Source: Planctomyces sp.
Lineage (GTDB): Bacteria; Planctomycetota; Planctomycetia; Planctomycetales; Planctomycetaceae
Assembly: GCA_016795105.1 (NCBI GenBank)
Contig: JAEUIH010000008.1
Coordinates: 1-64,000 of the forward strand
Direction: 5' to 3'
Length of the DNA stretch: 64,000 bases
Shown here: one piece after another, positions 45,297-56,901 of the stretch
Position numbering within the stretch: the first letter of the stretch is position 1
How the letters are laid out: every line of letters starts with the position of its first letter
Notes under the pieces: model-generated
The model's input: only the letters and a program-made list of their open reading frames with translations
Told to the model about the DNA's origin: nothing
The model's database searches: none
Program-made: the position numbers and the translations under genes

Positions 45297-45624
45297 GAAA
45301 AGACCGTCCAGTCACTGAAAATGTTTTCCTTGTGAGAGGGAGAGCCCGAAGACTCACAGTTCGGTCCTGTGAACATCACACAGAAACCGGCAGCACCTCT
45401 CGTAATTTATCGCCGCAGTTGACACTTCATCCAACGGATTGTCCAGCGAAAGCCACGCATGGAACCAAAAAGCCGATTTAAATACGAGCCCATTTTTCAG
45501 CGAATTCTGCCGAACGAAACACGGGTTGTGTCATTTTTACTGATTCGCTAGAGTTCAAGCTGATGGCGGTGTGCATGGATTCGGCACACCTGACAATTTT
45601 GTTCAACCATGGACGGTTGCAGAC
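45297..45624. promoter_or_regulatory. Divergent region with a candidate promoter for the glycan cluster
   Basis: This 328-base gap separates the SEC-C gene from the plus-strand cluster. A weak sigma70-like pair is TTGTGT (about 45526-45531) with TAGAGT 17 bases later. The match to consensus is partial, so this is a guess. Confidence 0.25.
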
Positions 45625-46107
45625 ATGACATCACACTCTTCAACGACCTCGTTCAATTCATCGAATACTCCTGCCACAAACTCTGCGGACGGTCGTTCCG
45701 TGTTTGTGACGCAGTGCACGTCAACACCAGACGCAATCGCCAGTGTGCTGCTGGCAGGCGATGCTGTACTGAATCTCTCCGGGAAAATGCTCAATGCTCC
45801 CGCAAACACCGCGTTTGTGCGTGAGTCGCAGGGGAGATTGCTGGTGGCACATGGACCACACACTGTCAGTTGGCAGCCGCATCTGACTCCTGCCCTCAAA
45901 CCTCTGATCTCTCGGGATATCTCTCGGATTGTCGTTGTCGCAAATGATCAGCAATCCGACGCGGATGCTGCGGTTGCCGCGATTTCACAACAATCAATTC
46001 CTGTTTCGTACTGCGTTCTCAGCGACACTTGTCAGGCAGATGACTTCATGGATGAAGCAGATGCAGAGGCAGTTGCCGAACGCCTGCGGCAACTGGGCTA
46101 CCTCTGA
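45625..46107 (+). CDS. Small protein of unknown function at the head of the glycan cluster
   Basis: 160 residues from the ATG at 45625. The first 30 are Ser/Thr/Asn-rich. The rest alternates beta strands and helices (VAHGPHTVSWQPHLTPALKPL, then IVVVANDQQSDADAAVAAISQQ), resembling a small alpha/beta domain. No motif allows assignment. It precedes the AlkP gene by 52 bases. Confidence 0.55.
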   Translation: MTSHSSTTSFNSSNTPATNSADGRSVFVTQCTSTPDAIASVLLAGDAVLNLSGKMLNAPANTAFVRESQGRLLVAHGPHTVSWQPHLTPALKPLISRDISRIVVVANDQQSDADAAVAAISQQSIPVSYCVLSDTCQADDFMDEADAEAVAERLRQLGYL

Positions 46108-46159: not shown

Positions 46160-47443
46160 ATGAAACAGTTCTTGCTTGGTATCGATGGACTTCCTCGCTG
46201 GATGTGGCAGCAATTTGCGGATTCAGGGGTCATGCCCAATAGCCACAAGCTGCTCCGCACTGGAACGCTGGTTCCTATGAAGTCTTCGCTCCCGGAAGTC
46301 TCTTCGGCTGCATGGGCATCAATCGTCACAGGCCAGAATTCCGGCGGACACAATGTTTTCGGCTTTACGGATTTGATGGACAACAGCTACACGCTTGGAT
46401 TCACATCCGCTCGAACGTTCAAAGCCAAACCATTCTGGATGCTGGACAACGCTGGTCCAAGCCTCATCATGAATGTCCCCCAGACCTACCCTGCTCAACC
46501 CATGCCAGGGATGCTGGTCTCCGGATTCGTGGCACTCGATCTGAAGCGAGCAGTTCATCCGCCCGAACAGCTGCCGTGGCTTGAAAGTATTGGTTACTCC
46601 GTTGACGCTGACATGTCACTCGTTGAAAAAGGCAAGCAGCGATTTGTTGACGAGCTCCTGCGAGTTATGACAGCACGCTGCCAGGCGCTGCATCATCACT
46701 GGGACCGTGAACCCTGGCAGAATGTGATGTTCGTCTTCACGGGCACTGATCGACTCAATCACTATCTGTGGGAAGACTACGAAGATACCTCTTCTCCGTT
46801 TCACCAGACGTTTCTGGATTACTATCACGAAGTTGACCGCCAAATCGGAGAAATCCTCAGCCGCCTGGATGACAATACGCTGCTTTCCGCGGTCTCTGAC
46901 CATGGATTCGGCCGTCAGCGGATCAGTGTGAATGTGAATTGCCTGCTGGCCGAGGCCGGCTATCTTTCACTGAAGCCATCTGATCGCCCTTCGTACATTG
47001 ATATGCTGCCGGAAACGAAAGCATTTGCAATGGATCCAGGCCGGATTTACCTCCACCGACAGGGACGCTACCCCGGTGGCACCGTGACCCAGGACGAGGC
47101 CGAAAGCCTCATGCAGAACCTCACCACCTACTTTCAGAATTGCACGGTCGGTGGAATGCCAATCGCATCCGAAGTACTTCGTGGTACCGACGTTTACTCC
47201 GGACCATTTGCACATCGTGCCCCTGACCTGATCATCATGCCGGCAAAAGATGTCGCTCTCTCCGGCAGAATGAACCTGTCTGCACTCATCGAACCAACTG
47301 CCATCAATGGTAAACACACCTGGACCGAATCAACCTTCTTTGTTCGAGGTGACGCGGCTTCGCGTATTCCCGCTGACATGAAGGTGGAAAACGTTCTGGA
47401 TGTCTTGATGCCTGCCACTGAATCCGTTCGCAAAGCCGCTTAG
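46160..47443 (+). CDS. AlkP-superfamily phosphodiesterase/phosphohydrolase, tail RKAA
   Basis: 427 residues matching type I phosphodiesterase/nucleotide pyrophosphatase-like proteins. LLGIDGLPRWMWQQF supplies the first metal-binding Asp and EVSSAAWASIVTG supplies the nucleophile (Ser or Thr). FVFTGTDRLNHYLW and AVSDHGFGRQR supply metal ligands. No signal peptide is seen, so it is probably cytoplasmic. Its C-terminus is SVRKAA. It opens a plus-strand cluster of glycan genes and could act on a phosphorylated sugar or nucleotide intermediate. Confidence 0.82.
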   Translation: MKQFLLGIDGLPRWMWQQFADSGVMPNSHKLLRTGTLVPMKSSLPEVSSAAWASIVTGQNSGGHNVFGFTDLMDNSYTLGFTSARTFKAKPFWMLDNAGPSLIMNVPQTYPAQPMPGMLVSGFVALDLKRAVHPPEQLPWLESIGYSVDADMSLVEKGKQRFVDELLRVMTARCQALHHHWDREPWQNVMFVFTGTDRLNHYLWEDYEDTSSPFHQTFLDYYHEVDRQIGEILSRLDDNTLLSAVSDHGFGRQRISVNVNCLLAEAGYLSLKPSDRPSYIDMLPETKAFAMDPGRIYLHRQGRYPGGTVTQDEAESLMQNLTTYFQNCTVGGMPIASEVLRGTDVYSGPFAHRAPDLIIMPAKDVALSGRMNLSALIEPTAINGKHTWTESTFFVRGDAASRIPADMKVENVLDVLMPATESVRKAA

Positions 47444-47624: not shown

Positions 47625-49106
47625 ATGACCGGTTCGAACTCATGCCACAATGGAAAGAACACCTGCTGGAGTTGTCCTGCCGTTGAGTTTAAAGGGCACG
47701 TGGACTTCAGAGCCTGTGGACAGGCTGCGTTTCGAAAGGCGGCCATGGGGCAGCTTGTCGTCGAATGTAAACGACGTCCGGAGATCGGGTACTTTGATCC
47801 GATGTCCATTACGTTTGATTCGTGCAGCGAGTGGAAAAAGACCGAGTGCGGCTATCTGATGGATGGCATGAAAGTCATGATTCTCGGCATGGATGGGTAT
47901 CTCGGATGGCCGCTGGCTCTCAAGCTCGCAAAGCTTGGATGTCGAGTCTACGGAATCGACAACATGCTCCGCCGCGAGCTTGTCGCTGAACGCGGCGCTC
48001 AGTCGGTTACCCCGATTCTCACAATGAAGGAACGAGTGGAAGCCGCGAAGAAGCACCTTGGAGTCGATATCGATTTCCGAGAAATGGATCTGATGGATCG
48101 GGAATCGCTCTTCGCCTTCATCAAAGAAGTGCAGCCGGAGTCCATTGTTCAGTTCGCTGAAATTCCAAGTGCACCATACAGCATGGCATCTGTTGATAAA
48201 GCTGTGGCTACCATTCAAAACAACGTAGTTGGAACGCTCGGACTGTTGTTTGGTGTCCGCGACCATGCCCCCGACGCGTCGATCATAAAACTCGGAACCA
48301 TGGGAGAATATGGAAGCCCTCTAACAGGTCGCCCGCTGTTCGAAGGTCTGTTTCCGGGCGATGCAGTCCTCCAGTACAAGGGTCAGGAGTGGAGTCTTGG
48401 CGGTGAACTGACTCCAAGAGACCCCGTCAGCTTTTATCATGTCAGCAAAGTTCAGGGTACATTTAGTGTGTACGAGGCCTGCAAGTACTGGTGGCTCCGC
48501 AGCTACGACGTGATGCAGGGAGTGATCTATGGAAATTCCTCCGATGAACTGAACACTCACGCGGATTTGAATACTCGTTTTGACATCGACGAATGGTGGG
48601 GAACGGTTGTCAATCGCTTTGTTGCCCAGGCAGTCATTGGAATGCCGCTTACAATTTACGGCAGTGGAAATCAAAAGCGAGGATACATCACTCTTCGTGA
48701 TGCGATGCAGTGCATTACTCGACTGATTGCCGCACCACCGGAACCTGGGCAGTATGATGTCGTCAATCAGGTCACTGACGTATTCTCAGTCATGCAGATC
48801 GCGCAGATGGTCGCCACGATCGGCCGCGAATTCGGACTCGATGTTGAAGTTCAGCGAATCGAAAACCCCAGAGTCGAGGCCGAAGAGCATCCATACGAAG
48901 TCATTCACGAAAAGCTGACCGATCGATTTGGCTTCGAATCCGAGTCAGGATTCGCAGATGAAGTTCGGCATCTGTTTCGAGTCCTCACTCAGCCTGAAGC
49001 AAAACAGCGAATCGAAGCACAGCGAGACACTCTGTTTCCAAAAACAAAGTGGTCCGGCGAACACGGCAAGCTGGAAGTGCTCGAGACCTGGCGTCCGGCT
49101 GCTTAA
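47625..49106 (+). CDS. UDP-sulfoquinovose synthase-like protein with an N-terminal Cys-rich domain, tail RPAA
   Basis: 493 residues. From about 82 on it aligns with SQD1/SqdB: MDGYLGWPLALKLAKLG with the nucleotide-binding loop, EIPSAPYSM, KLGTMGEYG (Thr), SFYHVSKV (Tyr-x3-Lys), GVIYG and NPRVEAEEHPYEV near the end. The enzyme makes UDP-sulfoquinovose from UDP-glucose and sulfite. Residues 1-81 are an added Cys-rich part (C7, C14, C17, C31, C48, C67, C75) after a good ribosome site, GAGG at 47613. The protein ends TWRPAA. The domain resembles a metal- or thiol-binding module of unknown function. Confidence 0.85.
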   Translation: MTGSNSCHNGKNTCWSCPAVEFKGHVDFRACGQAAFRKAAMGQLVVECKRRPEIGYFDPMSITFDSCSEWKKTECGYLMDGMKVMILGMDGYLGWPLALKLAKLGCRVYGIDNMLRRELVAERGAQSVTPILTMKERVEAAKKHLGVDIDFREMDLMDRESLFAFIKEVQPESIVQFAEIPSAPYSMASVDKAVATIQNNVVGTLGLLFGVRDHAPDASIIKLGTMGEYGSPLTGRPLFEGLFPGDAVLQYKGQEWSLGGELTPRDPVSFYHVSKVQGTFSVYEACKYWWLRSYDVMQGVIYGNSSDELNTHADLNTRFDIDEWWGTVVNRFVAQAVIGMPLTIYGSGNQKRGYITLRDAMQCITRLIAAPPEPGQYDVVNQVTDVFSVMQIAQMVATIGREFGLDVEVQRIENPRVEAEEHPYEVIHEKLTDRFGFESESGFADEVRHLFRVLTQPEAKQRIEAQRDTLFPKTKWSGEHGKLEVLETWRPAA

Positions 49107-49169
49107 ACCGAAAACCTGCGTAAGGTCGCGTCTTGTCAGACACCTCCGGTGCAAGGAAGCAACAGAGAT

Positions 49170-50093
49170 ATGGAAATCCGAGATAATGATTTTAGCGAAA
49201 TGGTCCTCCAGTCCGACCGACCGGTTCTCGTCGACTTCTGGGCTTCATGGTGCCCTCCCTGCAAAATGATGCAGCCGGTCGTTGATAAGCTGAGTCTCAA
49301 AGTGGGCGACTGGGCGGATGTCTTTTCGGTGAACATTGATCGCTGCCCGGGACTGGCAAGCCAGTTTCAGGTGTCGGGAGTTCCTACTTTCATTTCTTAT
49401 GCAGGTGGACAGGCTGTCGATCGCCGCACTGGAGCTCTGACCGAAGGCCAGCTCCTGAATCTGCTGTACTCCGCCCGTGACAAGATGCCAGTCACCGCTT
49501 CAGAGGCCTTAACACAGCCCGAAGGAGGTGAAAAGATCACAATCGTCTCCGGGCTTCCCCGCTCCGGTACTTCTATGATGATGCGTATGCTTGAGGCGGG
49601 TGGAATTCCTGCACTCACCGATCAGCAAAGAACACCAGACGCGGACAACCCGAATGGTTACTACGAATTTGAGGACGTCAAAAGTCTGGCAAATGACACC
49701 GGCTGGCTCGCAAATGCTTCCGGCAAGGCCGTCAAGATGGTTTACAGCCTTCTGAAACATCTGCCCAATGACCGCGAATATCAGGTGATCTTTATGCGTC
49801 GCAACGTCGACGAGATCCTCCAGTCTCAAAAGAAGATGCTGGAACGAAACGGGATCCCCACAGAGATACCGGATGCCACAATGAAGATGCTGTTTGATCG
49901 TGAACTCAGACAGTTCTATTCGTGGCTTCCGGAACAGACTCACCTCAAGCTCATCAATGTCAGCTATAACGATCTCCTCAGTTCCCCGGCCAGTACTGTT
50001 CATCAGATTAATCGACATCTTGGCGACTGCCTGAATACCGACATCATGATTCAGATGGTTGATCCCACCCTTTACCGACACCGCGCAGCATAG
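49170..50093 (+). CDS. Thioredoxin-sulfotransferase fusion, tail HRAA
   Basis: 307 residues from the ATG at 49170. Residues 1-105 are a thioredoxin domain with FWASWCPPCKMMQP (WCPPC, near 26-30) and VSGVPTF. A short linker leads to a sulfotransferase-like P-loop domain: GLPRSGTSMMMRMLEAGG (PAPS 5'-phosphosulfate loop, near 127), DNPNGYYEFED, and the 3'-phosphate segment FMRRNVDEILQSQKK. It ends LYRHRAA. The domain pairing is unusual and lies between two sugar-nucleotide genes. Whether the enzyme binds PAPS, or acts as a kinase-like P-loop protein, needs testing. Confidence 0.85.
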   Translation: MEIRDNDFSEMVLQSDRPVLVDFWASWCPPCKMMQPVVDKLSLKVGDWADVFSVNIDRCPGLASQFQVSGVPTFISYAGGQAVDRRTGALTEGQLLNLLYSARDKMPVTASEALTQPEGGEKITIVSGLPRSGTSMMMRMLEAGGIPALTDQQRTPDADNPNGYYEFEDVKSLANDTGWLANASGKAVKMVYSLLKHLPNDREYQVIFMRRNVDEILQSQKKMLERNGIPTEIPDATMKMLFDRELRQFYSWLPEQTHLKLINVSYNDLLSSPASTVHQINRHLGDCLNTDIMIQMVDPTLYRHRAA

Positions 50094-50126: not shown

Positions 50127-51245
50127 ATGAGCTTCTTCTCAGGCAAAACAATTCTGGTTACGGGCGGGTGCGGCACTGTTGGGCGAGAAATCGTACGGCA
50201 GCTGCTGGATCATTCTCCGCAGGAACTCCGAGTCATCGACAGCAATGAATCGGAGATTTTCTTTCTTGAACAGGAACTGCTGACGCATTCACGTCAGAAT
50301 CCCAAATGCCAGATCACCAGCCATTGCCAGGTCGGCGACATCCGCGATGCCGATAAACTTACGATGATGTGCGAAGGTGTCGACATCGTTCTTCATACTG
50401 CTGCACTGAAACACGTGATTCTCTGCGAGCGTGCTCCATTTGATGCAGTGCAGACAAACATCATGGGAGTTCGGAATGTTATTAACGCAGCTCTCGTCAA
50501 CAATGTTGAACGCGTAATCTTCACAAGCTCCGACAAGGCAGTGAACCCAACAAACGTAATGGGCACTTCAAAGCTCATGGGCGAACGCCTCATCACAGCG
50601 GCCAACAGCCTGAAGCTCAAACGCCGGACCATTTTTAGTTCCACACGATTCGGAAATGTACTCGGATCCAGAGGATCGGTGATCCCGATCTTTGCTCGGC
50701 AAATTCAGAATGGCGGTCCGGTCACCCTTACAGACTCAAGGATGACCCGCTTTATCATGACTCTTGAAGAAAGCTGTCGACTGGTGCTGCTCGCCGCTGA
50801 AAAGGCACGCGGCGGTGAAGTGTTTGTCACGAAGATGCCCGTTATTCGAATCGCCGACCTCGCGCATGTCATGATCGAAGAGTTCAGTCGACACCTTGGC
50901 TTTGATGCCAGAAAAATGCCGGTTACGGAAATCGGATCAAAACCAGGTGAGAAACTCTACGAAGAACTTATGTCCGATGAAGAGACGCGACGAACTGTCG
51001 AACTGACCGAAATGTTCAGTGTCCTGCCGGCGTTCCGAAGCGTGTACGAAGACATTGCGTATGACTATGACGACATTGTGACCAGCGAAGTCACCGACCC
51101 ATACGTCAGCAGTCCTTCAAACTCGATGTCACGTGAGGCACTCAAGTCGTTCTGCCGACAAAATGGGCTCTTCGACGAATATCTTGGCGGGATCAAGCTG
51201 CCGGATGTTTCTGGTCAAACAACCTCCATTCGTCGAGCCGCCTGA
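50127..51245 (+). CDS. Nucleotide-sugar dehydratase/epimerase of the CapD/PseB type, tail RRAA
   Basis: 372 residues, short-chain dehydrogenase fold. It has TGGCGTVGREIV (NAD(P) loop, near 13), HTAALKHV, SSDKAVNPTNVMGTSKLMGE (the Met/Lys form of the active site seen in CapD/PseB/FlaA1-type enzymes) and FGNVLGSRGSVIP. It is probably a UDP-GlcNAc 4,6-dehydratase or 5-epimerase for surface-sugar synthesis. It ends SIRRAA. It is followed nine bases later by the flippase gene. Confidence 0.9.
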   Translation: MSFFSGKTILVTGGCGTVGREIVRQLLDHSPQELRVIDSNESEIFFLEQELLTHSRQNPKCQITSHCQVGDIRDADKLTMMCEGVDIVLHTAALKHVILCERAPFDAVQTNIMGVRNVINAALVNNVERVIFTSSDKAVNPTNVMGTSKLMGERLITAANSLKLKRRTIFSSTRFGNVLGSRGSVIPIFARQIQNGGPVTLTDSRMTRFIMTLEESCRLVLLAAEKARGGEVFVTKMPVIRIADLAHVMIEEFSRHLGFDARKMPVTEIGSKPGEKLYEELMSDEETRRTVELTEMFSVLPAFRSVYEDIAYDYDDIVTSEVTDPYVSSPSNSMSREALKSFCRQNGLFDEYLGGIKLPDVSGQTTSIRRAA

Positions 51246-51254
51246 TTTTGATAT

Positions 51255-52607
51255 ATGTCCACAACCGCCGTTCGAAATATCAGCCTCTTCTCAGATGCGT
51301 TTGGCACACTTGCCGTGCGCATTCTGGGAATCGGACTCGTATTCATCACAACGGCAGTACTTGCCCCAATGCTGGGGCCCCACGAGTATGGAACGTACAG
51401 CGCTGGCCTTTCGCTGGCAGTCGTGCTTTCAAGCCTCGTCCCGCTGGGCACGGATCGAGTCCTCACTCGCAACCTGGCAACCGTTCACTGCCCTGAAGAT
51501 GCCGGCGCGGAGACCGCCGTGGCACACATCAGTTCTCTGCTCACCAGCCTTCTGGTCTTCGTACTCGGCAGCCTTCAGTTCTGGTTCAGTGATTGGCTGC
51601 CGTTGTCCGTGGCGTGGTACGAGTCCTGCATGATTGCCGCAATTCTGTTTGTTCCCGTTACACTGACAAATCTGCGACAGTGGATTGCCATCCCGCTGAT
51701 TGGCACTCGTCATGCTGTATTACCGGAACAAACCATCCTGCCAATCTTGTTCCTGCTGTCTGCAGGCTTTGCATATGCACTCAAGCTTCCATTTACGGCG
51801 ACCTCAGCGGCTCTGAGCTTCGCCGGCCTGAGTCTCGTTGTCTGGCTAGTATCGCTTTCGAATCCATCGATTCAGATTGCCTACCGAACTGCCATTCGAC
51901 ATCGACCATCCGCCCGTGAAGTGACCTGCGCTATTCAGACTGCACTACCATTCGTCAATGTTTCGTTTGGTGGAATTCTTCTTCAGCGATGCATTCCATT
52001 GATCACTGCGGAGACCTGCGGATTTCAGGAAACGGGGCAGTTTGCAGTGGCCCAGCAATTCGCCGGCCTGCCTGCTATTCCACTCGGAGTCGCCACGCTT
52101 GTCATTCTCCCAAGATGCACGCGTCATTTTCGGATGAACGAAACCGAAGAAGCGACTCGAACAATCCGTGACTCCGCCACAACCACCTTCCTGCTTGCAG
52201 TCCTGGTCGCAGCGATCGTCTGGGTCAGCCGCCCCCTGATGCCTTTGATCTTTGGTGGCTCGTTTTCACGAGTTGAAGAAGTTTTGCCCATCCTTCTGCT
52301 TGCCACAATCGCGGAAGCAGTCTCCGGACCATCCATGGCGGTGATGCAGGCCATGAGAATCGAACATACGCTTGCTCGCTGTCTTATTGGATTTATCCCC
52401 GTACAGCTTGGACTTGTGTATCTATTCAGCCAATGGTTTGGACTGGAAGGCGCGGCTCTCGGGTTGCTCGTCTCCCGGCTCCTGTGGATCGGCCTCGTTG
52501 TTCGAATCATCTATGCCTCCAGTCGGATCCTCTCGGTGCCTTCACTCCGGTTTCCGAAGTTCGGACTGAATTCATTCCGATCACGTCATCACTCCTCAAA
52601 TCCCTGA
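51255..52607 (+). CDS. Wzx-type oligosaccharide flippase
   Basis: 450 residues with about 12-14 hydrophobic segments. The opening LVFITTAVLAPMLGPHEYGTYSAGLSL and a GTDRVLTRNLA loop fit the MOP/polysaccharide transport family. It would move lipid-linked sugar repeat units across the inner membrane. Two conserved positively charged patches lie in cytoplasmic loops. It lies directly after the dehydratase gene. Confidence 0.85.
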   Translation: MSTTAVRNISLFSDAFGTLAVRILGIGLVFITTAVLAPMLGPHEYGTYSAGLSLAVVLSSLVPLGTDRVLTRNLATVHCPEDAGAETAVAHISSLLTSLLVFVLGSLQFWFSDWLPLSVAWYESCMIAAILFVPVTLTNLRQWIAIPLIGTRHAVLPEQTILPILFLLSAGFAYALKLPFTATSAALSFAGLSLVVWLVSLSNPSIQIAYRTAIRHRPSAREVTCAIQTALPFVNVSFGGILLQRCIPLITAETCGFQETGQFAVAQQFAGLPAIPLGVATLVILPRCTRHFRMNETEEATRTIRDSATTTFLLAVLVAAIVWVSRPLMPLIFGGSFSRVEEVLPILLLATIAEAVSGPSMAVMQAMRIEHTLARCLIGFIPVQLGLVYLFSQWFGLEGAALGLLVSRLLWIGLVVRIIYASSRILSVPSLRFPKFGLNSFRSRHHSSNP

Positions 52608-52632
52608 ATTCCGCAGTTGCTGAAAAACAGCC

Positions 52633-53853
52633 ATGTCCATCCTCATTCTGATCTTCGTACTCCTGATCACCGGCATCACGTCCGTGGTTTCACACCCACT
52701 GACGTTGCTCGGTTCAGCCGCCACGGCGATCTCGTTTACGTTCCTCGGAATCCTGAATCCGTCCTGTCGAATTAAACCTCTGTATTTCGCCTCCTCAGTC
52801 CTCCTCTGTATTCTGTGCCTCCTCTCATTCGAACGGAACGTAGCCACCACGTCGAGCACGATGCATATTCTTGCCTGCTACTCGTCTCTCGCCGGGCTCT
52901 CCGTTGCGGTTCCTCAATTCTCCGACTTCTGCCGAAAAGTCTGCGTTATCGTGTTCGGTGTTCTCAGTTGCTGGATTCTGGCTCAGACCATTCGGGCAGG
53001 TACCGTGGCGTCCTGGACAGTCTCCGGGACAGCTGCCGCCGGGAATCTTATGGCAGCGCAGCTCAACATGATTCTCCCCATGATTCTGATCATGGCGTTC
53101 GATACATTTGGAACTCGCCGAAACATGCTGTTGGTTTTTGCCGGCGTCGGCATGGCGGCCATCGTCTGCGTGGGTTCACGAAACGGAATCGGCAGCCTCC
53201 TGATCACTCTTACCCTCATTACACTTTTCAAGCATATTCGATCGGCAATCCTGATCTGCAGTACTATGATGGGTACGATCATGATGAGCGAAGAGCTCAT
53301 GCAATTGCCGTTTATCGCTTCAGTTCTCCACCGATTCCGCTTTGTGGGGTATCGATCCGAAGCTCCCAGATCACTGATCTGGTCAGTCTGTTCGGAGTAC
53401 ATTTTTGCCCGACCATGGCTTGGCATTGGACCAGGCAGGACTGCGAGCGTACTTGCCGTCATGGATATTAACCACGCCCATAACAACTTTGTGCAGGTTG
53501 CCATTGAATGCGGAATTCCGGCCGCACTGATCGCAGCCTTTGTCTTCGGTTCACTACTGCAGCTGCCAGCATCAGGGTTGCTGCACAGTCGTCGAGCCTT
53601 TGTGTTGTCACTTTCCGTAATTGCCTATCTGGCCCATTCAATGACCGATATTCCGATGCACCATCCGCAGCAGACACTGTTGTTGATCCTGTGTGTCAAC
53701 GAGGCACGTCGAGCACTTCTTGAAGTACCGGAGACGGCCCAAAGTACAGCCATGTATAGAACTTCAGCGTTCGGTTCAGATGTTGACAGGATATCCGGAA
53801 GACGTGAAACTCCCGCATCACAACCAGCGGGTTTCCAGATGAAGGCTCGGTAG
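52633..53853 (+). CDS. O-antigen polymerase/ligase-like membrane protein (Wzy/WaaL type)
   Basis: 406 residues with about ten membrane segments and one large outer loop near 240-290 containing PWLGIGPGRT and VMDINHAHNNFVQ, typical of Wzy_C/O-antigen ligase proteins. It would polymerise or transfer glycan units after flipping. Its stop lies within a 15-base sequence repeated 23 bases later (53845-53859, 53868-53882). Confidence 0.85.
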   Translation: MSILILIFVLLITGITSVVSHPLTLLGSAATAISFTFLGILNPSCRIKPLYFASSVLLCILCLLSFERNVATTSSTMHILACYSSLAGLSVAVPQFSDFCRKVCVIVFGVLSCWILAQTIRAGTVASWTVSGTAAAGNLMAAQLNMILPMILIMAFDTFGTRRNMLLVFAGVGMAAIVCVGSRNGIGSLLITLTLITLFKHIRSAILICSTMMGTIMMSEELMQLPFIASVLHRFRFVGYRSEAPRSLIWSVCSEYIFARPWLGIGPGRTASVLAVMDINHAHNNFVQVAIECGIPAALIAAFVFGSLLQLPASGLLHSRRAFVLSLSVIAYLAHSMTDIPMHHPQQTLLLILCVNEARRALLEVPETAQSTAMYRTSAFGSDVDRISGRRETPASQPAGFQMKAR

Positions 53854-53882
53854 ACATCGAGCAACGAGCTCGGTAGACATCG
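53845..53882. repeat. 15-bp direct duplication spanning the stop of the polymerase gene
   Basis: GCTCGGTAGACATCG occurs at 53845-53859 (with the TAG stop at 53851-53853) and again at 53868-53882. Confidence 0.75.
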
Positions 53883-53916
53883 GGCGGTAAGCTCGCTCAG
53901 AAAGGAGTCAGGGGTT

Positions 53917-54813
53917 GTGGGAAGTCTGGCGAAACAAATGCGATATCAGGTCACGGCCGCTTTGCAGCGGTTCGGGATCCATGAGCAGGCGCTGGACGCT
54001 CTACGACTCTTCGATCCTCGCAGTCGTCCATTCCGTAAACAGAAACAGTTCTCTCTGGACGTAGGAAACACAACTGTTCGCTTTCATACTGACGACCCGT
54101 ACTCAAACGCATGGTTTTACCCGCGACTGTCAGAATGTCGCACTCATGAGCAATCTCTCACTGAACGGCTGGTTTCAGGGCTGCAGAATGTACGATGCTT
54201 TGTTGACATCGGTACGAACCTTGGCTGGTACACGTGCATTGCCGCAAGTCTGCTGCCTCAGGGTGTCGTCTACGGGTTTGAGATGGATAAGGTCAATTTC
54301 GGGCTGCTTCAGCGAAATCTCTCACTGAACCGAGCCACCAATGTGCTGGCCTATCACCTTGCAGCTTCTGACACAGACGCTGTTGAAACGTATCAGCGAA
54401 ACGGGATTCGGCCGGGCACTCATTTCCAATTGAACAAGCATGGCCGCGGACTCCCGGTTGAAGTGAAGTCTGTGACTATGGATCGTTTTTTCGATCACAC
54501 CAGAGTTCCACCGGATGTGGTCAAGATTGATGTGGAAGGAGCGGAGCACAGGGTACTTCTGGGTATGAAGCGGCTGTTGGTGGAACAGCGACCAACGATC
54601 TTCATGGAGCTTCACCCGCAACTGCTTCCGAACTTCGGATCCACATCAAAGGATGTCATCGGACTGCTGATCGGTCACAACTATCAGATCACTCGACTCT
54701 CAGCCAACCATTCAGGTTCCGCTTCACCGGCCCGGCTTTCACTTTATCAACCGATAACTTCCGACACGCACTTCTCTGAAAATGACCACTTGCTGGCAAC
54801 GCCTCTCCAATGA
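53917..54813 (+). CDS. FkbM-family methyltransferase
   Basis: 298 residues from a GTG start with AAAGGAG nearby upstream. FkbM landmarks are FVDIGTNLGWYTCIAASLL (motif I, near 94), YGFEMDKVNFGLLQRNLSLN, and VVKIDVEGAEHRVLLGM near 203. FkbM enzymes O-methylate sugars or other hydroxyls. The last four bases overlap the glycosyltransferase start, so they are coupled. Confidence 0.9.
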   Translation: MGSLAKQMRYQVTAALQRFGIHEQALDALRLFDPRSRPFRKQKQFSLDVGNTTVRFHTDDPYSNAWFYPRLSECRTHEQSLTERLVSGLQNVRCFVDIGTNLGWYTCIAASLLPQGVVYGFEMDKVNFGLLQRNLSLNRATNVLAYHLAASDTDAVETYQRNGIRPGTHFQLNKHGRGLPVEVKSVTMDRFFDHTRVPPDVVKIDVEGAEHRVLLGMKRLLVEQRPTIFMELHPQLLPNFGSTSKDVIGLLIGHNYQITRLSANHSGSASPARLSLYQPITSDTHFSENDHLLATPLQ

Positions 54814-55943
54814 CCACTGACCGCTCACAAAGATACGCGCTGTGTCTGACGGGGGCTCGTTCTCTGAATAAGCGAATGTCGCTGTTCATGGAAGGAGTTA
54901 TCTCGGAGGGTGGCGCTGTGACGGTCTGGGCGTTGCCCCGCGGCAAATGGTCAACTCAGCGATTCGAGTCACCTCAAACAACAATCGATGCCGGAATCTT
55001 CAGCCTGAGAATTCGCGGAAGTCACCGCCCACTGATCTCCGTCATCTTCTGTTTCCACTGGATTATGCTGCCGGTCGCTGTAGTAGTAGGCATGCTACGT
55101 CGAGTCCCGGTGATTTATGATGAACATGATCACTACGAAATCAACACGCTTGAAGGCGGAGGAAGCCGATTCAAAAAGTGGATGAACCAGCAGCTTGTCC
55201 GCTGGGTTCACCGCACGATGCTGCCTTTTGTTTCTATGGTCACATGTATTCATCTGGCGAACGAACAATTGAAAAAACACCTGCAGCAATGGCAGGCGAA
55301 TGTCGTGGAACTTCACAACTTTCCGGTTCGTGCATGGAAGGACGTGCCGCAGAATTTTTCCTCCAGCGGCAAGCTCTGTTTTGTCTACATGGGTGGTATC
55401 TTCGCGGAGAAGGGCGTTGGTCAGGCAGCGATCGCATTTCAGAAATTGCCCGACCACATCCGGGATTCCTGCGAGCTTCACATTTTCGGCGATGGAGATC
55501 GAGACCTGTTGACTCGACTTCATGACATGCCCAACATCATTCTGCATAACAATCAATCACCGGAGCAGCTCAGGAAATTTGCCTCACAGCACCGATGCTG
55601 CGGACTTGTGCTTTACAATGAACATCCGAGATATCGACTGATCGGTACGAATTCCAGAAAGCTGTACGAATACCTGGCGCTTGGGATGCCTGTCATTGCA
55701 ACGAGTGTTGGGGAACTGCCGCGGTTGCTGCTGGAGCACAATATCGGCATTCTGATTCATGCCCGTATCGAAATTCAGGAACTCACCGCTGCGATGTATC
55801 AAATCGCAGACGAACCGGGCAGCTGGAATTCTTTTTCACAACACGCTCGTGACCTTATGAATCGCCCCGAAATGACATGGGAACATGAATGGGACAAAGT
55901 GCTTCGATCAGGGTTTCTTGACCCACTTCGAAAAGCAGCCTGA
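54810..55943 (+). CDS. Glycosyltransferase family 4, tail RKAA
   Basis: 377 residues, GT-B fold. The second half carries the GT4 pattern: FVYMGGIFAEKGVGQAAIAF, ELHIFGDGDRD, then NSRKLYEYLALGMPVIATSVGELPRL (the donor-binding E-x7-E region). It ends DPLRKAA. It starts inside the FkbM gene's last codons (ATGA). It probably adds a sugar in the surface glycan. Confidence 0.9.
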   Translation: MTTDRSQRYALCLTGARSLNKRMSLFMEGVISEGGAVTVWALPRGKWSTQRFESPQTTIDAGIFSLRIRGSHRPLISVIFCFHWIMLPVAVVVGMLRRVPVIYDEHDHYEINTLEGGGSRFKKWMNQQLVRWVHRTMLPFVSMVTCIHLANEQLKKHLQQWQANVVELHNFPVRAWKDVPQNFSSSGKLCFVYMGGIFAEKGVGQAAIAFQKLPDHIRDSCELHIFGDGDRDLLTRLHDMPNIILHNNQSPEQLRKFASQHRCCGLVLYNEHPRYRLIGTNSRKLYEYLALGMPVIATSVGELPRLLLEHNIGILIHARIEIQELTAAMYQIADEPGSWNSFSQHARDLMNRPEMTWEHEWDKVLRSGFLDPLRKAA

Positions 55944-55989
55944 CTCGATGAAATCCCCTGTCGTCTCGCATACCTGAAGGATCAGACTA

Positions 55990-56901
55990 ATGTCCACAGC
56001 CATATCTTCCGTCGCTCAGACTTCCGGACAACCGGCTTCACTCATTTGTCCGGCATGTGGAACATCCTCAGCCCTGGCAAGTCGCGCATGGCGCTTCGTG
56101 AATGCTCGCGGTGAGACCGAATGGCTGCGCTGTCCGGCATGTGATTCCTATTTCATGGATGGGGAATACAGTCTTGAGAGCGAAATCAGTCATACTCAAC
56201 AGATGACATGGGGTGACACCGAACACGGCGAACAACTCAATAACTTCAAACAGCGGATGTATAACAGCATACTGAAAACGATCACGCAGCACGTTCAGCC
56301 CGTTGGAAAGAGTCTCCTCGATGTTGGTTGCTCTTACGGCGGGTTTATGGAGGCTGCTCGAGCAGAAGGATTCGATGTCTATGGTTTTGACATTGTGCCG
56401 CAGGCGGTACAGCGAGTCACGAAGTCGGGCATGCGAGCTCAGTGCTGCGGTCAGGTCTGTGACTTCACCCTGCGGACTGAACCGTTCGATGTGATCAGCG
56501 TCCTCGATGCAAACATCTACTGGCCCAACCAACCTGAAGAGCTGGCAGAGATTTATCGGCGACTCAAACCTGGTGGATTACTTGTCATGAGAATCGTTGA
56601 CAAATCGTGGATGGCCCGAATCGGAGCTGCCCTGCAACGTGTTTCCGCGGAAAGAGGTCAAAAACTTTTGAGACGAGCCGTGAACGATCACAGGTTTTCA
56701 ATGCCCGTGGGCAGCTTCCTCAGCGTCCTGCGGAAAACAGGGTTTAACGTTGTCAGCGCGTCACCCCGAGGTGCGGTTCACAGTGATCAAACGAGTCTTC
56801 CCGTGAAACTTTCGTTTGCAGTTGGGATCGCTCTCTGGCAAACTCTCGGGGTTTTCATGGCGCCAGGGGCAGTGGTTGTCGCTGAACGGCCACTCAACTG
56901 A
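55990..56901 (+). CDS. Zinc-ribbon class I methyltransferase
   Basis: 303 residues. The N-terminus has a zinc ribbon with C20-x2-C23 and C48-x2-C51. The methyltransferase domain has SLLDVGCSYGGFMEAARAEG (motif I, near 106). LKPGGLLVMRI follows about 90 residues later. The C-terminus is partly hydrophobic. The ribbon-plus-methyltransferase layout recurs in sugar-modification clusters. The acceptor is unknown. Confidence 0.85.
   Translation: MSTAISSVAQTSGQPASLICPACGTSSALASRAWRFVNARGETEWLRCPACDSYFMDGEYSLESEISHTQQMTWGDTEHGEQLNNFKQRMYNSILKTITQHVQPVGKSLLDVGCSYGGFMEAARAEGFDVYGFDIVPQAVQRVTKSGMRAQCCGQVCDFTLRTEPFDVISVLDANIYWPNQPEELAEIYRRLKPGGLLVMRIVDKSWMARIGAALQRVSAERGQKLLRRAVNDHRFSMPVGSFLSVLRKTGFNVVSASPRGAVHSDQTSLPVKLSFAVGIALWQTLGVFMAPGAVVVAERPLN

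Follow-up and report, generated by a model that had tools for sequence, protein, structure and literature searches.

The fusion gene in the window (the whole stretch of 64,000 nucleotides that was analysed) encodes a real two-domain protein: an intact thioredoxin (Trx) tethered to a compact sulfotransferase-type domain that carries both PAPS motifs. The surrounding module suggests that the sulfur of sulfonated or sulfated sugars of the cell surface may be handled by a dedicated unit. The explanation that we prefer, and hold tentatively, is that the Trx is the dedicated reductant or thiol partner of the neighbouring UDP-sulfoquinovose synthase-like enzyme (SqdB), which has a cysteine-rich extension, and that the tether joins it to a PAPS-dependent sulfotransferase acting in that glycan pathway.

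A thioredoxin tethered to a sulfotransferase-type domain

The gene runs from the ATG at 49170 to the stop at 50091-50093 in a single unbroken frame of 307 aa; the GTG at 49149 given as the start in the ORF listing is superfluous, as the relatives start at the equivalent methionine, ME(I/L)R. The initial annotation had read this frame as a complete thioredoxin (WCPPC) joined to a sulfotransferase-like P-loop, and profile searches of the two halves bear it out, Pfam matching Thioredoxin and Sulfotransfer_3 above the curated cut-offs. The neighbourhood is also as described there: the UDP-sulfoquinovose synthase-like gene lies directly alongside, ending at 49106, 63 bases upstream, and a sugar-nucleotide gene, the UDP-GlcNAc dehydratase-like one, lies downstream. 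Coordinates of all features are collected in Table 1.

Table 1. Features of the fusion gene and its neighbourhood (positions in the window)
Feature	Position	Strand	Basis
Small conserved protein, first gene of the module, C-terminal tail EAVAERLRQLGYL	45571..46107	+	position conserved
AlkP-superfamily phosphodiesterase-like gene (PF01663)	46160..47443	+	Pfam Phosphodiest, E 4.9e-29
UDP-sulfoquinovose synthase (SqdB/SQD1)-like gene with N-terminal Cys-rich extension	47625..49106	+	SQD1 match, NCBIfam, catalytic residues
N-terminal extension of the SqdB-like protein, invariant C7, C14, C17, C31, C48, C67	47625..47867	+	identity, invariant cysteines
Thioredoxin-sulfotransferase fusion gene, 307 aa	49170..50093	+	ORF, Pfam, conserved fusion, AlphaFold2 mean pLDDT 87
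Thioredoxin domain, residues 1-104	49170..49481	+	Pfam, structural comparison of the model
WCPPC redox motif, residues 27-31	49248..49262	+	25/25 Trx rows of the clusters
Interdomain linker, residues 105-121, variable	49482..49532	+	pLDDT, linker lengths in relatives, higher pN
Sulfotransferase-type P-loop domain, residues 122-307	49533..50090	+	Sulfotransfer_3 in 15/15 relatives scanned; profile against solved sulfotransferases
Predicted 5'-phosphosulfate-binding loop SGLPRSGTS, residues 127-135	49548..49574	+	at least 90% conserved, 59 aligned rows
Predicted 3'-phosphate-binding motif, R211-x7-S219	49800..49826	+	at least 90% conserved, 59 rows; aligns with SULT1A1
UDP-GlcNAc 4,6-dehydratase-like gene (PF02719), last core gene	50127..51245	+	Pfam E 6.4e-100; same place in relatives
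Glycan assembly genes: flippase-like, Wzy-like, FkbM methyltransferase, glycosyltransferase, methyltransferase	51255..56901	+	Pfam

The N-terminal half is matched by Pfam Thioredoxin (PF00085) over residues 3-98 with an E-value of 1.1e-24, above the curated cut-off, and residues 1-103 of the AlphaFold2 model superimpose on solved thioredoxins with Z up to 19.1 and an rmsd of 1.1 Å over 103 residues; the score against the NCBI thioredoxin equivalog TIGR01068, 95.1 bits, lies just below its cut-off of 96.8. WCPPC and the cis-proline loop GVPTF are kept in all 25 Trx rows of the module, while the Trx paralogues of the same genome whose motif was read have WCGPC. As both motifs are invariant and the thioredoxin fold is matched, this half should be redox active.

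The C-terminal half, of about 185 aa, scores 43.1 bits against Pfam Sulfotransfer_3 (PF13469; cut-off 27), with the best stretch at residues 168-285, and the same family was matched in all 15 relatives scanned. The core of its predicted 5'-phosphosulfate-binding loop, PRSGTS, occupies residues 130-135. Searched against the PDB, the family profile retrieved almost exclusively solved sulfotransferases, SULT1A1 best (E 3e-4), and the SULT1A1 segment VARNAKDVAVS (RNAKDVAVS) aligned with the R-x7-S of the window; designed armadillo repeats, returned by a single-sequence PDB search with this half, were dismissed as spurious, the profile having given sulfotransferases instead. A kinase identity for the P-loop half would have overturned the annotation, but neither Pfam nor NCBIfam gave a match to any kinase family (E ≤ 1). 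The family alignment has no conserved cysteine in this domain, and PF01507 was unmatched (E ≤ 1), so that the fusion was also rejected as a CysH-type PAPS reductase. AlphaFold2 gave pLDDT mostly above 90 here; the structural match lists were filled by thioredoxins and barely probe this half. The best Foldseek match was 7scd, an engineered Trx-3OST5, with an alignment that covers both halves.

Relatives of this domain are common in planctomycetes as stand-alone genes of about 190-210 aa and occur in many phyla without Trx or SqdB; the module points to a widespread small sulfotransferase-type family. Six loci from several phyla (L147, L160, L170, L173, L207, and L209) have an ATP-sulfurylase and/or APS kinase gene beside or near the relative, and in four of these (L147, L170, L173, and L207) this gene adjoins it directly on the same strand. 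At least four such neighbours in 76 loci correspond to P = 1e-6 to 6e-4, given a chance of 0.1-0.5% per locus, which is our own rough estimate. These neighbours tie the family to PAPS, and we infer that the C-terminal half of the fusion uses it.

The family also occurs in other company. Four proteins of about 900-990 aa (L074:2255-5071, L075:9500-12475, L159:7892-10594, and L178:6054-8759) combine an AlkP-type phosphodiesterase with a sulfotransferase domain of the window type, in L075 with tetratricopeptide repeats between the two. In Planctomycetota and Thermodesulfobacteriota records, among them L044, L053, L055, L056, L059, L060, L063, L176, and L194, a recurring operon places a stand-alone member of this sulfotransferase family together with two AlkP-family phosphodiesterase genes and one more small gene, which is membrane-protein-like in L055.

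A search anchored on the neighbouring SqdB-like gene found the module itself in three genera, in 25 of the family's 170 genomes. Trx and sulfotransferase share one stop-free frame in 14 further complete loci from two genera, likewise near sqdB-like genes, with linkers of about 18-105 aa; a fifteenth relative, L043, is cut by a contig end and stands outside this count. The third, Fuerstiella-like genus (L046, L117, L124, L125, and L126) has the two as separate but adjacent genes, as does the named record L142. In L118, L123, L127, and L129 a contig end prevented the pair from being read, and L130 (Fuerstiella sp. Bin_49_1) has the same gene order as L041. Compared with four relatives, both domains have pN of 0.15-0.19 and pS of 0.62-0.85, and the linker has pN of 0.24-0.56: purifying selection acts on both halves and far more weakly on the linker, which is disordered, with pLDDT below 50 at residues 110-117. 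This selection, together with the recurrence of the fusion without stops, rules out a frame error, a chimeric assembly, or chance.

A tree built from 60 sulfotransferase domains groups the fused rows in a single clade (SH-aLRT 97) and the unfused rows of the module in a second one (98), and the fused state therefore needs one change on the tree, a count that by itself does not separate fusion from fission. Fusion of neighbouring genes is the natural reading, because the unfused pair stands in the same order.

A conserved module around a Cys-extended SqdB-like enzyme

In every readable locus the genes follow the same order: small protein, AlkP-type phosphodiesterase, SqdB-like enzyme, Trx, sulfotransferase, and UDP-sugar dehydratase. 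The small first gene, whose product has no Pfam match, is found at the same place in L041, L042, L043, L046, L110-L117, L119, L120, and others. The tail of the sulfotransferase L201:1199-2032, KARLSELGYM, resembles the EAVAERLRQLGYL of this small protein.

Orthologues of the AlkP-like gene are 74-84% identical in the module elsewhere, and it is conceivable that the sulfotransferase half mainly serves this phosphodiesterase, for example in the turnover of a sulfated or phosphodiester-linked intermediate, with Trx and SqdB as mere pathway neighbours. The recurring operon does combine AlkP-family genes with stand-alone sulfotransferases, L074, L075, L159, and L178 have the two fused, and L201, a Nitrospirota locus, has an AlkP-type gene immediately after its sulfotransferase. 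We nevertheless regard such a role as improbable: the AlkP genes of most such operons are only 25-33% identical to that of the window, many sulfotransferase relatives have no nearby AlkP match, and the Trx fusion would be left unexplained.

Downstream of the core, several of the Wzx/Wzy-type glycan assembly genes keep their order in L041 and L042. Sister glycan clusters hold extra full-length sulfotransferase genes (L042:3745-4728 and L046:7284-8213), and for this reason the glycan product is probably also O-sulfated.

The SqdB-like protein matches Arabidopsis SQD1 (1i24) with an E-value of 8.3e-86 and keeps the catalytic residues of SQD1/Agl3 (T225, E228, Y229, Y271, and K275). Its score of 426.6 bits against NCBIfam UDPsulfquin_syn (NF041015) lies below the equivalog cut-off of 575, and on this account we call the gene SqdB-like rather than proven SqdB and treat a sulfo-sugar product as uncertain.

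The protein also carries an N-terminal extension of 80 aa, which is 79-88% identical across the module loci, with six invariant cysteines, and has no Pfam match. Among 397 genomes of the class searched, it was found in the module genomes alone; a further, weak match in G673 (E 2.7e-4) contains an internal stop and overlaps a longer integrase-like ORF on the opposite strand, and was set aside as chance. The AlphaFold2 model of the SqdB-like protein, made from a six-row alignment, has a pLDDT of 45 and is uninformative on the extension.

Other planctomycete SqdB homologues align from residue 81-82 onward and lack the extension. Around five of these, the 12-20 kb read contained nothing matching a Trx or a sulfotransferase, and three of the five have a close dehydratase homologue directly upstream. 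The dehydratase-SqdB pair thus occurs without the rest, and the Cys extension, the Trx, and the sulfotransferase come together. In L225, L226, and L227, from a distant planctomycete family, the UDP-GlcNAc dehydratase-like gene shares 55% identity with that of the window and is followed directly by an extension-less SqdB homologue. This arrangement hints that the sulfonated sugar may derive from UDP-GlcNAc.

A proposed thioredoxin partner and the supply of sulfur

Of 109 other loci, a single one, L142, clearly has a Trx beside a member of the sulfotransferase family, and L142 is the same module; the search was made on the DNA level, so that ORFs below 120 aa were covered. Since the co-occurrence is confined to clusters with a Cys-extended SqdB, the Trx goes with that enzyme and not with these sulfotransferases generally, although a module known from one family represents few independent events. 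Sulfotransferase relatives outside the module have no Trx beside them, and the most economical view is therefore that the Trx serves SqdB or its sulfur supply, with the tether bringing in a sulfotransferase from the same pathway; gene order points to the SqdB-like enzyme as the putative partner.

The same data bear on whether the protein is an ordinary glycan O-sulfotransferase whose fused Trx is a solubility, folding, or docking module without redox coupling to SqdB. The Trx follows the Cys-extended SqdB and not the sulfotransferase family, a separate Trx gene occupies the same place in the Fuerstiella-like genomes, and WCPPC and GVPTF are kept in 25 of 25 cluster rows, which would be needless for a mere scaffold. 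With the family widespread as stand-alone genes, a linker that is variable and disordered, and other sulfotransferases in the sister clusters, a scaffold Trx retains some appeal; on balance, we consider it rather unlikely.

The fusion protein need not be the source of activated sulfate or sulfite. Genes for CysD, CysNC, and a separate APS kinase are present in the genome, as is one for a CysH-like reductase that has CC and C..C motifs, so PAPS and sulfite would be expected without it; Sulfotransfer_3 has eight matches in the genome in all. Elsewhere (L010/L088, G000:C221), the gene after an APS kinase gene encodes a thioredoxin-like protein of 339 aa that appears to be exported.

A bolder possibility, in line with the channelling between sulfate and sulfite proposed in the initial annotation, is that the unit generates sulfite itself: the sulfotransferase half would pass the sulfuryl group of PAPS to a thiol of the Trx or of the SqdB extension, the Trx cysteines would resolve the S-sulfo bond, and sulfite would be released beside the SqdB-like enzyme as its dedicated donor. 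Sulfotransferases normally act on O or N acceptors, and we know of no sulfotransferase that works as a PAPS-to-sulfite relay. The domain here has no conserved cysteine, its relatives occur across many phyla without Trx or SqdB, and a CysH-type sulfonucleotide reductase is already present elsewhere in the genome; a relay therefore seems quite unlikely to us. The parts are nevertheless compatible with one, and what speaks for it is the fixed SqdB-Trx-sulfotransferase order, the strict association of the Cys extension with the module Trx (and of a Trx beside the family with Cys-extended SqdB clusters), the PAPS link of the sulfotransferase family in a genome able to make PAPS, and a gap in what is established for these enzymes: how sulfite reaches UDP-sulfoquinovose synthases in vivo is described as unresolved, while the SQD1 of plants is purified together with a partner, ferredoxin-dependent glutamate synthase (PMC4388408).

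In our preferred reading, with the Trx as partner of the Cys-extended SqdB, the sulfotransferase half would transfer sulfate from PAPS to an intermediate of that glycan pathway, and the Trx half would serve as reductant or thiol partner for the Cys-rich extension, the flexible linker holding the two kinds of sulfur chemistry together. Such a pathway would yield a glycan with a sulfonated sugar, probably with sulfate esters too. With a Cys-extended SqdB-like enzyme, a dedicated Trx, and a sulfotransferase side by side, the module offers a bacterial system in which to probe sulfite supply, a question that it makes testable with few purified proteins.

Comparison with known systems

Each part belongs to a known family; our literature search returned nothing relevant on a natural thioredoxin-sulfotransferase fusion, and the combination of such a fusion with a Cys-extended SqdB was likewise absent from the literature searched. 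The N-terminal half shares with thioredoxins (PF00085) the whole domain, the CxxC motif, the cis-proline loop, and the close structural match, and differs in having CPPC where the Trx read from its own genome have CGPC, in its tether to a sulfotransferase, and in its sub-equivalog score. The neighbouring enzyme resembles the UDP-sulfoquinovose synthases SQD1, SqdB, and Agl3 in its SQD1-like sequence and its catalytic Thr, Glu, Tyr, Tyr, and Lys, but carries the 80-aa Cys-rich N-terminal extension and likewise scores below the equivalog level.

With the PAPS-dependent sulfotransferases (PF13469/PF00685, of which SULT1A1 and tyrosylprotein sulfotransferase have been solved) the C-terminal half has in common the PRSGTS P-loop, the R-x7-S motif, and the Pfam and profile matches, whereas it is compact, fused to a Trx, and located in a sulfoquinovose-type cluster. 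PAPS/APS reductase (CysH) acting with thioredoxin embodies the same concept, an activated-sulfate site joined with a thioredoxin, but the fusion has no PAPS_reduct match and the CysH-like gene stands separately, elsewhere in the genome. The closest counterpart in domain order, a thioredoxin followed by a sulfotransferase, is the engineered Trx-3OST5 crystallisation fusion (7scd, 7sce): unlike the natural protein described here, it was built in the laboratory, its thioredoxin being a tag, and its domains are placed differently, with an rmsd of 14 Å.
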